A DNA stretch of 64,000 bases from Rhodococcoides kroppenstedtii (GTDB taxonomy: Bacteria; Actinomycetota; Actinomycetes; Mycobacteriales; Mycobacteriaceae). Below the pieces are notes generated by a model that saw nothing but the letters and a program-made list of their open reading frames with translations, was not told the origin of the DNA and ran no database searches. Both the position numbers and the translations under genes were made by a program. The DNA lies in the NCBI RefSeq assembly GCF_900111805.1, contig NZ_FOJN01000006.1, positions 1 through 64,000 of the forward strand, read 5' to 3'. Below are positions 1-7,252 of the stretch, piece by piece (the first letter of the stretch is position 1; the number at the start of each line of letters is the position of its first letter).

Positions 1-995
1 GAACTCCTCTGGATGTGCAGCGGGCATGGCTCGGACTCCTCTCCTGCAGCAGCAACGCTACAGATCAGGTGTCCGGAGAACCGGGTCAAGCTCCTTTCGT
101 AGAACGTGGTCGTTTCGCGTAGCTGTGCGACCAACGACGCCACACCGTAAAAGGCACCGGTATGGAGTTCGTTCCACCGACCGAGCAGCTGCTCGACATC
201 GTCGACGTCGGACAATCGAAAATTGATTCGACGTCGACTGCGCTCGTCCAGGACGGTGTTCTCCTCCGGGAGGTCGTCCGCGCTCCACCATTCATAGCGG
301 TCACTAATGCCGGAGGAGCCGGCCGTCTCATAAAACGCGATGGCGCGGACACCTGTGGGCCGGTGCATCGCGATCGTGACGAGGTCGGAGAGGCGGCGCG
401 AGATAGCAAGGTGGTCGTCGACTGAGAGACGCTCGATGCTTGATACGAAGATGATGTTCTTGAACCGGCCGGGAACGGCCATATCGTCGCGAGTGAAGCT
501 GCTCTGGCCGGAATAGCTGGAATAGCTGCTGACCGTGACTTGGACTGCGCCGTAGGACGCAGTACGGGGCAGCGGATCGGGAACGGTGAAGGAAGTCCCG
601 CCGCCGGGCGGGTGCGAAATCATCGGGTCGAACTCGGCTGTCCAGAACGTCAAGTAGTCCAGTTCGATCACCGCCTCGGCGAAAGCCAGAGCGTTCCTAT
701 CGGCCACGTGGTTCTGTCCGATCACTACGCCGTCACCCTCGATTGTCTGGCGACGGTGATCTTCGCCGTTGCGAACGATGCCGCTCTCAGCTGTAACGTA
801 CGCGCCGAAAATCGAGACGGCTCGACCGCCCGAACTGCCATGCACGGTGACTGAGTCGCGCGAGAAGCCCAGTAGTTCACCGCCGAGATCAAGCCGTGGC
901 TCGGCGTCATCGCCGAGCGTGAGAACCCCGTACACGGTGCGGTCTGCTGCGTCTGCCGCCCACCACTGACCATGCAATTGCTGTGTCGTCGACAT
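1..995 (-). CDS. ApeA-like protein, partial (runs off left edge)
   Basis: This minus-strand frame opens with an ATG at 995 and stays open for about 331 codons to the window edge, so the C-terminus is missing. The N-terminus reads MSTTQQLHGQWWAADAADRT and continues with a GVLTLGDD strand, a VHGSSGGRAVSIF segment and VVIGQNHV. This pattern (G-x-WW, then a G-x-L-T strand, then HG-x-x-x-G-x-x-V) resembles the N-terminal domain of ApeA-type proteins, which are HEPN-containing abortive-infection factors against phage. The HEPN catalytic part would lie outside the window, so nuclease function cannot be confirmed. A TANNNT hexamer six bases upstream supports the start. The neighbours are a broken hsdR and a GTPase pair, which fits a defence tract. 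The family call is from memory of the domain pattern. The reading frame is firm; the family is moderately sure. Confidence 0.6.
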   Translation of the reverse strand, partial: MSTTQQLHGQWWAADAADRTVYGVLTLGDDAEPRLDLGGELLGFSRDSVTVHGSSGGRAVSIFGAYVTAESGIVRNGEDHRRQTIEGDGVVIGQNHVADRNALAFAEAVIELDYLTFWTAEFDPMISHPPGGGTSFTVPDPLPRTASYGAVQVTVSSYSSYSGQSSFTRDDMAVPGRFKNIIFVSSIERLSVDDHLAISRRLSDLVTIAMHRPTGVRAIAFYETAGSSGISDRYEWWSADDLPEENTVLDERSRRRINFRLSDVDDVEQLLGRWNELHTGAFYGVASLVAQLRETTTFYERSLTRFSGHLICSVAAAGEESEPCPLHIQRS

Positions 996-3032: not shown

Positions 3033-3428
3033 TCACTGTGGGTGTCCTTCGTTGAACGCTTCGTTGCTCAGATCCGGTGGGGTCGAGGCGTCCCACACGC
3101 TCGCGTACACCTCGGACACCAGTGGCCACACCTTGCGCAGGCCGTCGTCGACGGACTCGACCGCCGCGGCGAGGTCGCCGTACAAGACGAACTCGTGGGG
3201 AATGACGCGCCCTGCCGAATCGCGACGCCCGAGGGGATCCGAAATACGCAACGCGACGCAACCGTCGTGTCGTCGCCACGCCGTCGGTTCGTCGCGAAGG
3301 TCGCCGAAAGCGCGTTCATAGTCCGGCAACGGATCGCTTAATCCTGCGTCGAAGAGGAACCGGTAGCCCCAGTTTCGGCCTCGCGTGGCCCACATCATGC
3401 TTCCGAGATCTCCCAGTCGGGCGGTCAT
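3033..3428 (-). CDS. Small partner protein of the GTPase gene (131 aa)
   Basis: The function is not recognised. The 131-residue product starts MTARLGDLGSMMWATRGRNW, has a central CVALRISDPLGRRDSAGRVI segment, and ends in acidic and polar residues. It has no membrane segment or signal peptide. Its ATG overlaps the stop codon of the upstream GTPase frame (ATGA at 3425-3428), so the two were almost certainly translated together. The pairing of a P-loop GTPase with a small companion resembles GTPase-centred conflict loci known from comparative genomics of bacteria. That link is an inference from gene order, not from a recognised domain. Confidence 0.6.
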   Translation of the reverse strand: MTARLGDLGSMMWATRGRNWGYRFLFDAGLSDPLPDYERAFGDLRDEPTAWRRHDGCVALRISDPLGRRDSAGRVIPHEFVLYGDLAAAVESVDDGLRKVWPLVSEVYASVWDASTPPDLSNEAFNEGHPQ

Positions 3429-4595
3429 TTGGGATTCCTGATTACTTTGTCGTCGACGCCTTGCTCGAGGTCGCTTTTGAACTGCGTCAGGGTTGCGCGC
3501 AGGTAGTCGTTCTGTGCGCGAGCCTGCTCGTGCATTTCCTTGAGCTTCGGCCCCGCCAACTGCGCTGCTGTCGTAAGGATCGGCAGTGCCTTGTCCACTT
3601 TCGGCATCCGGGCAAGCAACTTCTCGATCGGCGCGAACTTGCCGCCCGCGAGGCCGGCAGCCAGCAGTTCGGCGCCGTCTGCGAGTGACTTCAGGACCCT
3701 GACGGAGATGTCAAACTTTTGGTGCCACTGCACTCGGCGTTGCAGCGGCAGGATGGATGCCACAGGCAGAATCAGGTCGAGACCGATGCGATGCGTCAAG
3801 TCGATGCCGACTGTTTGCTCGCCACCGAGCTTGCGTTCGAACTTGGCGGACGACAGCAGCATGAAGTCCTCGCCGATCGACAGTGCCTCGGGCGTATCGA
3901 TCAGATCGGCGACGGTCGATCGGAAGTGCTCGATGTCCTCTGCTGCGTTGAGGATGACCAGATCACGAAAGGTGTCGACGTCCCAATCCGGGAACAGATC
4001 GGCTTTCGACAACGCCAGAATCCAGATCCGCGGGAACTCGATGATGGGCCCGTCCTCGAGCAGGTCGTCCTTTAGCTGAAGGAGCCCGTGGCGGAAAGCG
4101 AACATCAGCGACTTGAGGTACTTGTGCTCCTCCCCTCGGTGGTTTAACAATTTCTGTCCATCCACCAACAGGATTGCGACATCGGACCGAAGCAGCGAAC
4201 GGAAGTTGTCGATGCGCCGATCTCTCTCGAGAGGGCTATTGGGTTCGGTTCCGAACCATTCACCGGGGTAGTCGTGCCACGCGAGTCGGAGGACGTCGAA
4301 GGGCCGATTCTTCGCAGCGGCGTTCTCGCCGCCTTTTAGTTTGACCGAAAAGTAATAGGTGATGGCCTGAAATCGGTTTGGTAGCGGCGTCTCCGCTTTG
4401 ACGCGCATGCCCAGGTAGTTCTTGTAGAGCCGGCCCGCCTGACCTGCGTCATCGGCCACGAAGGTCCCACAGGTCGTTCGTGTAGGACCCTTCCTGCGTC
4501 GGACCGAAGAACGACGACACAAGGACGGTCTTGCCCGATCCCGCCTCGCCAAAGACGGCGATGTGCTGCTCTCGGACTTTCGGGAATTTGGCCAC
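3425..4595 (-). pseudogene. P-loop GTPase-like protein, interrupted by a one-base frameshift
   Basis: Reading from a GTG at 4595 gives MAKFPKVREQHIAVFGEAGS followed by GKT, a clear P-loop (GEAGSGKT, residues 16-23). That frame stops shortly after YTNDLWDL. The remaining part continues in another frame from VADDAGQAGRLYKNYLGM. Removing one base of the AA at 4461-4462 (one T in CTT on the coding strand) restores a single frame of about 389 codons. Further GTPase hallmarks follow: WHDYPGEW in the DxxG position, LSKAD as the NKxD-like base-recognition motif, and SSAKF as a G5-like loop. The C-terminal third is helical and may pack against the small protein encoded downstream. The frameshift may be real decay or a sequencing error. 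The protein looks like a TRAFAC-type GTPase of an accessory or conflict system; its role is unknown. Confidence 0.65.
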
Positions 4596-4840
4596 GCGGA
4601 GACGCTATCGGACGTCACCTCATAGGGAGAGTGGGCGGCCGCCCTTCCGGACGGCACCCACGGCTTCACTGACTCCGACTGCGGCGCGGCCAGGTGCGAT
4701 GTCGTCGACAGATGACCCTGCCGCCCACCGGGAAGGGGCACCGCCCGTCGGGGCGCCGCTCGTTTCGTTGGCGCGCTCACGCGCAGCGCCGTGCCACGGT
4801 CCGTCGTCGGGCCGACCGCAGGACCGGCGCGGGCGCCGAG

Positions 4841-4967: not shown

Positions 4968-5894
4968 ATGGACCTCCGCATCTTCACCGAACCGCAGCAG
5001 GGCGCGACCTACGACGACCTCCTCCGGGTCGCCCGCGCGTCGGAAGACCTCGGATTCGATGCGTTCTTCCGGTCGGATCACTACCTCCCGATGAACGTCG
5101 ACGGTCGCCCCGGGCCCACCGACGCCTGGGTCACCCTGGCCGGGCTGGCCCGCGAGACGTCGACCATCCGCCTGGGGACGCTGGTCACCTCGGCGACCTT
5201 CCGCTACCCGGGCCCCCTCGCGGTGTCCGTCGCGCAGGTCGACGCGATGAGCGGTGGCCGCGTCGAACTCGGGCTCGGCGCCGGGTGGTACGCCGAGGAG
5301 CACGCGGCGGGCGCGATTCCGTTCCCGCCGGTCGGCGAGCGTTTCGATCGCTTCGAGGACACCCTGGCCATCGTGACCGGCATGTGGGCCACGCCGGAGG
5401 GCGGGACCTTCGACCACCAGGGACACCACTTCTCGGTCACCGGGTCGCCCGGACTGCCGAAGCCCGCGCAGGACTCGGTGCCGATCGTCATCGGCGGCGG
5501 CGGGAAGAAGCGGACGCCGGCGTTGGCCGCGCGCTACGCCAGCGAGTTCAACCTGCCCTTCGCCGACGCCGAGACCACGGCCACGCAGTTCGACCGCGTC
5601 CGGGCGGCCTGCGCCGAGGCCGGGCGCGACCCGTCGTCGATGACCTTCTCCAACGCCCTCGTCCTGTGCTGCGGGTCGTCCGATGCCGAGGTGGCCCGAC
5701 GGGCCGGGGCGATCGGACGCGAGGTCGACGAGGTGTTCCGCAACGGTGCGGCCGGATCACCTGATCAGGTGGTGGACACCCTCGGACGGTTCGCCGAACT
5801 CGGCTCGACCCGCGTCTACCTGCAGGTGCTCGACCTCCACGACCTCGATCACCTGGCGCTGGTGGCCGAGCAGGTCATGCCGCAGGTGGCGTGA
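4968..5894 (+). CDS. LLM-class F420-dependent oxidoreductase
   Basis: This 308-residue protein belongs to the luciferase-like monooxygenase fold. Family members in mycobacteria-like organisms use the deazaflavin F420 for hydride transfer. The N-terminus MDLRIFTEPQQGATYDDLLR and the segments LGFDAFFRSDHY, IRLGTLVTSATFRYPG and GRVELGLGAGWYAEEH are typical, including the non-prolyl-cis-peptide region after the TLVTS strand. IVIGGGGKKRTPALAARYA is the usual phosphate-binding C-terminal segment. The length is normal for the family. Its 3' end overlaps the convergent acyltransferase gene by 20 bases. The substrate cannot be told from the sequence, and FMN instead of F420 is possible. Confidence 0.85.
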   Translation: MDLRIFTEPQQGATYDDLLRVARASEDLGFDAFFRSDHYLPMNVDGRPGPTDAWVTLAGLARETSTIRLGTLVTSATFRYPGPLAVSVAQVDAMSGGRVELGLGAGWYAEEHAAGAIPFPPVGERFDRFEDTLAIVTGMWATPEGGTFDHQGHHFSVTGSPGLPKPAQDSVPIVIGGGGKKRTPALAARYASEFNLPFADAETTATQFDRVRAACAEAGRDPSSMTFSNALVLCCGSSDAEVARRAGAIGREVDEVFRNGAAGSPDQVVDTLGRFAELGSTRVYLQVLDLHDLDHLALVAEQVMPQVA

Positions 5895-7032
5895 CCTTCG
5901 GATCCGCGGCGGGCGTCCCGCTGCCGGCGAAGCGCTTGGCGATCCACGCCGAGGCGGGCGTTTCGACGTAGCGGTACACCACGTCGGACAGGATGCCGAC
6001 GACGAGAGCGAAGACGGCGACGGCGGCGGTGGCGCCGAGGTGCGGCTCCACCCACTCGTAGATCCGATAGAGCACCAGCGTGTGCACCAGATAGATGGTG
6101 TAGCTGCGCGTCGCCAACCAGTGCACGACGCGGCTGCGGCCGAACGCGGTGTCGGTCGGCGCGACGAGCACGACCGCGACGATGAGGACCAGCACCGTCC
6201 ACAGGTGGCCGCGTTGGCCGACGTGAAACGCGTCGACGGTCATCGCGAACTGGATGACGGCGAACTGCGCCAGTGCCGCGCCGACCAGAACGCGCCACGA
6301 CGCGATCCGCACGAACGCGAAGTAGGCGATCTGACCGAGGAAGACCGTCGGCAGCGTCGCGGCGACCTTGTCGAGCATCGGGATCGTCCAGTCGTAGGGC
6401 ACCAGGTCCGTGTAGAGCAGGACCAGCCAGCACAGCGCGGCGCCGAGGGTCGGCACCAGAACCGGTCGCGTCATGAGAAGACGACGCAGCGCGACCGCGT
6501 AGCCGTAGAACACGAACTGCACGATCAGCGTCCAGGTGACGCCGAGGACCACCACTTCGGGACGCAGGAAGAACCCGCCGAGCACGAAACTCATCGCGGC
6601 TTCGGCGTTACTGATCCCGACGGTCTGGGAGAACATGCCGTTCACCCCGAGTCGAACCAGCACGACGGCCGCGAGGATCGACAACCAGAACACCGGGAGC
6701 AGGCGCGCCGCGCGACCCACCAGGAACGAGCGCGGCGAGTTCCGCGCCACCGACGCCGTCGACACCAGGCCGGTCAGCATCATGAAGAACGCCACCCCGA
6801 CGAACGAGAGGTGGTGATTGAGCCCGCCGACGTCGATCAGGGTCGCGGTGACGGCGTCGATGACCCACCAGGTCCCGCCCACGTCGTCGACCAGGTAGTA
6901 CGAGATGTGGGAGTACACGACGGCAAGGACCGCGACCGCGCGCAGCACGTTCAGGCCGGGGAACCGCACGCTCCGCAGACCGGCGGCGCGCGCGGGGGCG
7001 GCCACCTCGTCGGAGTCGCGAGCCGGGGACAT
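5875..7032 (-). CDS. Acyltransferase family 3 integral membrane protein (OafA-like)
   Basis: The product is a polytopic membrane protein of about 385 residues with roughly ten hydrophobic helices. The opening helix contains LNVLRAVAVLAVVYSH, the conserved N-terminal motif of the acyltransferase-3 family. In this family a histidine in that region takes part in O-acylation of cell-surface glycans or lipids. The C-terminus after the last helix is short and soluble (SAWIAKRFAGSG), with no SGNH domain. The start at 7032 (MSPARDSDEV) keeps a short cytosolic tail before the first helix; an ATG at 7059 is an alternative. In a mycolate-bearing actinobacterium a likely role is acetylation or succinylation of an envelope polysaccharide or glycolipid. 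No glycosyltransferase lies nearby to name the target. Confidence 0.8.
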   Translation of the reverse strand: MSPARDSDEVAAPARAAGLRSVRFPGLNVLRAVAVLAVVYSHISYYLVDDVGGTWWVIDAVTATLIDVGGLNHHLSFVGVAFFMMLTGLVSTASVARNSPRSFLVGRAARLLPVFWLSILAAVVLVRLGVNGMFSQTVGISNAEAAMSFVLGGFFLRPEVVVLGVTWTLIVQFVFYGYAVALRRLLMTRPVLVPTLGAALCWLVLLYTDLVPYDWTIPMLDKVAATLPTVFLGQIAYFAFVRIASWRVLVGAALAQFAVIQFAMTVDAFHVGQRGHLWTVLVLIVAVVLVAPTDTAFGRSRVVHWLATRSYTIYLVHTLVLYRIYEWVEPHLGATAAVAVFALVVGILSDVVYRYVETPASAWIAKRFAGSGTPAADPKVTPPAA

Positions 7033-7252
7033 AGCACCCGATCGTAAGGTTCCGTTCATGTGTGGGTCGAATTCGCCGACGTGCGACGCAGCCACGTGGT
7101 ATCGGGCCGTCGGGTGCGCGGGCCGGTGCGAGGTGTACGAATGACGGGGTCAGGGTAGGCCAGACCCCGACGGGTCCGTCCGATCGACGGGCCGAAACCC
7201 CATCGTCGGCTCCGACGTGCGAGTCGACGGACAGCATGAGAAGGGAACATTC

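Follow-up and report, generated by a model that had tools for sequence, protein, structure and literature searches.

The first 64,000 nucleotides of contig NZ_FOJN01000006.1 of Rhodococcoides kroppenstedtii (hereafter the window) begin with the broken end of an ApeA-family gene. On the minus strand, positions 96–995 hold the first 300 codons of this gene, which an insertion sequence (IS) of the IS3 family cuts between positions 94 and 95. No half of the HEPN RNase type was found in the assembly, which makes it likely, at a probability that we put at roughly 0.85 from the sequence evidence, that the gene is a dead remnant of an antiphage gene; a working antiphage gene at this locus is not supported. 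ApeA is a known defence system, and the locus holds a real but truncated member of the family, an ordinary ruin at a variable chromosomal site. The features that carry this reading are as follows.

1–94, minus strand: terminus of an IS3-family insertion sequence (left inverted repeat and following bases); transposase leftwards, contig ending inside the element, 31 residues added to the frame
95–995, minus strand: 5′ part of the ApeA-family gene, 300 whole codons (96–995) and the first base of codon 301
174–974, minus strand: ApeA_NTD1 domain (PF18862), profile positions 3–271 of 271

Published work describes the ApeA N-terminal domain, ApeA-NTD1, as "mostly beta strands" and fused to HEPN (PMC3710099), names ApeA among the HEPN defence systems of Gao et al. 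(PMC7699616), and presents HEPN domains as minimal RNases that act as homodimers (PMC13405049); ApeA also stands in a table of HEPN systems with its mechanism given as "N/A" (PMC10952713). Before the cut, the gene at this locus would have encoded about 425 residues and presumably functioned as ApeA proteins do elsewhere: its N-terminal part, rich in beta strands, would likely sense a signal caused by the phage, and its HEPN part would likely cleave RNA and thereby bring the infected cell to a halt.

The open frame and its ApeA domain

The frame itself has 331 codons, starts with ATG, spans window positions 3–995 and is open at the left edge, just as a sequence-only reading of this DNA had described it. 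By hmmscan, residues 8–274 match PF18862 with 59.5 bits against a cut-off of 25.5 (E = 4.7e-16), which confirms the ApeA N-terminal fold that the same reading had called by eye. PF18862 is the sole Pfam family above its cut-off in the frame, no NCBIfam family matches the frame up to E = 10, and in the genome the domain is found at this locus only. None of 14 control genomes has a match to PF18862 at E = 0.001, and the single match at E = 10 lies below the cut-off.

The frame does not, however, represent one gene running off the contig edge, as had been proposed. Codon 301 consists of one base of the gene and two of the IS, and residues 301–331 are IS DNA read in the gene's frame, which leaves only codons 1–300 to ApeA. 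An interruption of the frame had been named beforehand as an outcome that would speak against the proposal; there is one, and it lies inside the window. The proposal had also pointed to a HEPN domain and an Rx4-6H motif as a check, and no match to PF18739 (HEPN_Apea) was obtained above cut-off in the frame or at E = 1 anywhere in the genome; the control genomes gave three hits at E = 1 in the same search, none of which exceeded the cut-off. The description of the product as a HEPN-type factor thus holds for its close relatives, which carry HEPN_Apea and an Rx4H motif, but no HEPN half was found in this assembly.

Among those relatives, P0003 (321 residues, from a contig of 1,332 bases) shares 72% identity over 64% of the query, P0004 (428 residues) 47%, P0005 (251 residues) 50% over 74% and P0006 (188 residues) 51% over 48%; further ones are P0007 (421 residues, Rhodococcus sp. 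GG48), P0008 (428 residues) and P0009 (428 residues, Nocardia sp. NPDC046473). P0003, P0004, P0007, P0008 and P0009 have both ApeA_NTD1 and HEPN_Apea above cut-off, and in these five the Rx4H motif RNHLAH (RNALAH in P0009) follows 58–60 residues past the residue equivalent to the cut. The structure that AlphaFold predicts for P0007 (mean predicted local distance difference test score 78.2) places the cut where a helix formed by residues 299–317 begins, and the motif (residues 358–363) closes the helix 347–363. Compared with the close relatives of 421–428 residues, which combine PF18862 and PF18739, the gene studied here therefore has a complete ApeA_NTD1, whereas the HEPN half with its Rx4H motif is absent from a frame whose last 31 residues belong to the IS. 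The frame also resembles the PADLOC candidate system PDC-S58, matching profile PDLC05048 with E = 4.2e-11, as do P0004, P0007 and P0009; it differs in covering profile positions 4–273 of 461, the first part only.

The insertion sequence and the missing half

Window position 1 is base 1 of contig C9 in an assembly of 4,082,826 bases and 30 contigs, so the contig offers no sequence further to the left. The first 94–99 bases of the window recur at three other contig ends (the start of C18, the end of C15 and that of C21), and C18 also has an internal copy at 95% (C18:180117). When the copies are set side by side, they agree up to window position 94 and diverge from base 95, C9 and C18 sharing two further bases by chance. 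The 95% copy runs on into an orfA-like frame (HTH_Tnp_1, 23.4 bits, cut-off 24.1) and into an orfB in which HTH_21 and rve both exceed their cut-offs; among similar plasmid records, several bear the annotation IS3 family transposase. Since these bases recur at other contig ends, diverge at base 95 and continue in C18 into a transposase, positions 1–94 are identified as the terminus of an IS3-family element. Terminal inverted repeats are present at the left and right ends (GGAGCTTGACCCGGTT...CCGGACA), and the 25-base repeat at the left end on C9 agrees with the one at the right end on C13 in 23 of 25 positions.

In the genome, five left ends were found, counting the 95% copy, along with four right ends on C7, C12, C13 and C23. 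IS3-family elements duplicate 3–5 bases of their target. Two other copies show duplications of four bases, AAGA for the pair C15/C23 and GTTC for C21/C12; for the C9 copy no target-site duplication was found, its GAAA standing against CATC, AATT, AAGA and GTTC on the right flanks. In this respect, and in being assembled for 94 bases only, the C9 copy departs from an IS3-family element that it otherwise resembles in its terminal repeats, in the domains of the C18 copy and in the plasmid annotations.

Could the HEPN half lie beyond one of these right ends? The first 150 bases of all four flanks, translated in three frames, gave nothing resembling a HEPN half, and P0004 as query matched the genome at C9:72–995 only, with no second place; the idea was rejected on both counts. 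Likewise, the notion of an uncut ApeA gene was discarded, given the IS terminus at the contig edge and the lack of a HEPN half in the assembled genome. A second contig, of 48,426 bp, encodes the same protein ending in FYERSLTRF, six residues past residue 300, and is taken as the same junction in another assembly. It bears on the suspicion that assembly wrongly joined the IS end to an intact ApeA gene, an error for which contig ends are a common place. We give this explanation next to no weight: the cut falls exactly at an IS terminus common to other copies, the second contig has the same junction residues, and the HEPN half is not found elsewhere in the genome.

The accessory tract and the probable loss of the HEPN half

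The genomic surroundings were examined by means of the protein encoded at window 4968–5894, which, among the eight of 37 genus genomes compared, also occurs in G001 and G002 with 98% identity. Against the stretches fetched from these two sister genomes, the first 12 kb of the window align only from 4787 (G001) or 4735 (G002); the one exception is a border repeat of 40 bases. Immediately ahead of the start of this alignment, the G001 DNA corresponds to contig C13 of R. kroppenstedtii (C13:6109–16000, 89%), whose bases 1–95 are an IS right end. The simplest reading of this synteny would be the order core, about 6 kb of accessory DNA (C13), IS, 4.7 kb of accessory DNA (in the window), core, with DNA lost on either side of the IS. 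In addition to the ApeA gene, the tract in the window comprises the following.

1861–2936 (ends approximate), plus strand: remnant of hsdR, the R subunit of a type I restriction system; T1R_D3-like match in one frame
3425–4575, minus strand: GTPase-like gene; DO-GTPase2, 18.3 bits, below the cut-off of 27
4780–4821, strand not assigned: right border of the accessory tract; has GTGCCACGGTCCG, as does the far border on C13

The hsdR remnant also matches REase_I, and the stretch upstream of it continues, by eye, in another frame; in the GTPase-like gene, a P-loop-like stretch, EAGSGKT (about 4530–4570), was noticed by eye in a frame other than that of the DO-GTPase2 match. Both frames look broken. 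The sequence-only reading had placed the ApeA gene among other defence remnants, which is right for the hsdR piece and holds weakly for the GTPase-like frame, with its score below cut-off.

On C13, a 5′ frame of about 173 residues (C13:96–613, locus L053, minus strand) runs into the IS right end and has no Pfam or PADLOC match. The same contig carries two further genes, one AlbA_2 and one DUF6338, for neither of which PADLOC gave a match. Because C13 lies beyond the IS by synteny, because a frame is cut there too, and because the two flanks lack a target-site duplication, the HEPN half was probably removed by a deletion at the IS. Once the IS was in place, the HEPN half could have been lost along with the 3′ end of the second frame, the one now on C13, either by a deletion that started at the IS end or by recombination of two copies of the element. 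The remaining product would comprise at most the N-terminal part and a short tail read from the IS, with no catalytic centre, and since the RNA-cutting part was not found, defence activity is expected to be absent.

Some points weigh against a dead remnant left by deletion. The join of C9, IS and C13 comes from synteny and is not assembled, and a full IS copy was not seen at the site; C7 is an equally unpaired IS right end, which could not be placed in two sister genomes; and the assembly could have missed a short piece that holds the HEPN half. The last point would suit a simple insertion, in which the HEPN half survives beyond the IS on a missing piece and the gene is interrupted, not deleted. 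Indeed, the genome breaks at IS copies into its 30 contigs, and short pieces may have been lost. We nevertheless regard a simple insertion as unlikely, as completeness is given as 100%, synteny sets C13 beyond the IS without HEPN-coding DNA there, and the two flanks give no target-site duplication.

The site itself is empty in G001; G002 has about 8 kb there, which include an AIPR (E = 2e-29)/AbiU-like (E = 3e-23) gene; about 1.6 kb beside the border is common to C13 and G002. One and the same chromosomal site is thus empty in one sister species, carries an AIPR/AbiU-like gene in another and the ApeA ruin here. GTGCCACGGTCCG was located at window 4780–4821, at L053:6108–6149, at about 15679–15710 of L049, and at about 4081–4120 and 12266–12301 of L050. 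Its presence in the empty G001 site, and at both borders in R. kroppenstedtii and G002, suggests that an integrating element has used this site repeatedly, with changing defence cargo.

For annotation, the locus is a trap, in that a clean defence domain at a contig edge mimics an uncut gene although the last residues of the frame come from a transposon and the effector half is missing.

ApeA genes in the genus and beyond

PF18862 occurs at nine places in five of the 37 genus genomes, R. kroppenstedtii included. Both ApeA_NTD1 and HEPN_Apea are above cut-off at L025, L028 and L031; L030 has HEPN_Apea below cut-off (18.9 bits) with RNSMAH, an RNxxAH motif occurs at L027 and L029 (RNTMAH and RNDLAH) with no Pfam HEPN match, and L026 has neither a Pfam HEPN match nor the motif. 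At L023 (1444–2616, in G009, one of three ApeA_NTD1 genes), HEPN positions 2–49 of 136 only are matched, below cut-off, and an IS3-type orfB remnant (rve_3; L023:3515–3790) lies about 0.9 kb past the ApeA_NTD1 gene. For lack of a clear HEPN motif, L023 and L026 were left out of alignment A2 of the nine genus places; alignments A5 and A6 hold seven and nine sequences. With profile A3, eight of 401 family genomes match at E = 1e-10, the best beyond R. kroppenstedtii at 4e-14. Judged by these searches, the distribution of close relatives is sparse and patchy, the pattern that mobile defence genes would be expected to show.

On plasmids, the ApeA genes of R. erythropolis pRhX5 (L022:703–1984) and Rhodococcus sp. 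USK10 (L057:2992–4445) each consist of two overlapping frames, split at different places. The 251-residue short form from pRhX5 (P0005) has 26 member sequences on 130 contigs and is therefore not a one-off.

These forms raise the question of whether a fragment without HEPN might still be made, as a decoy or signal sponge. Here the gene has kept its start codon and its N-terminal domain in full, the frame is open into the IS, and the HEPN part is also lost or separated in other Rhodococcus ApeA genes. Such a role seems very unlikely, however, given that no other ApeA_NTD1 gene was found in the genome for the fragment to regulate, that the adjoining hsdR and GTPase-like frames look broken too, and that several genus-mates keep uncut ApeA genes. 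An equally slim chance attaches to a wider version, in which ApeA in Rhodococcus would repeatedly lose or uncouple its HEPN half and the whole or near-whole sensor would be retained to serve as a safety lock or a sponge for the signal, and not as junk; it draws on the IS cut described here, the truncation at L023 near an IS3-type remnant, and the two-frame forms of pRhX5 and USK10.

In the limited literature collection searched, no paper on anti-phage work with ApeA in Rhodococcus was found. The two-domain proteins P0004, P0007, P0008 and P0009 point to a small actinobacterial ApeA subfamily that is open to testing. In R. pyridinivorans p_4-4_B (L058:1299–3401), a two-domain ApeA gene is preceded, at a distance of 30 bases, by a gene for a DnaQ-like 3′–5′ exonuclease. 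According to a preprint, ApeA is reportedly activated by deoxydinucleotides, which makes an exonuclease partner of ApeA a lead, but P0007 finds no match in five of the 11 plasmid records that carry the exonuclease.

Finally, beyond the tract border, the window encodes an acyltransferase at 5875–7095, whose named nearest relatives are Rhodococcus proteins, the first at 75%.
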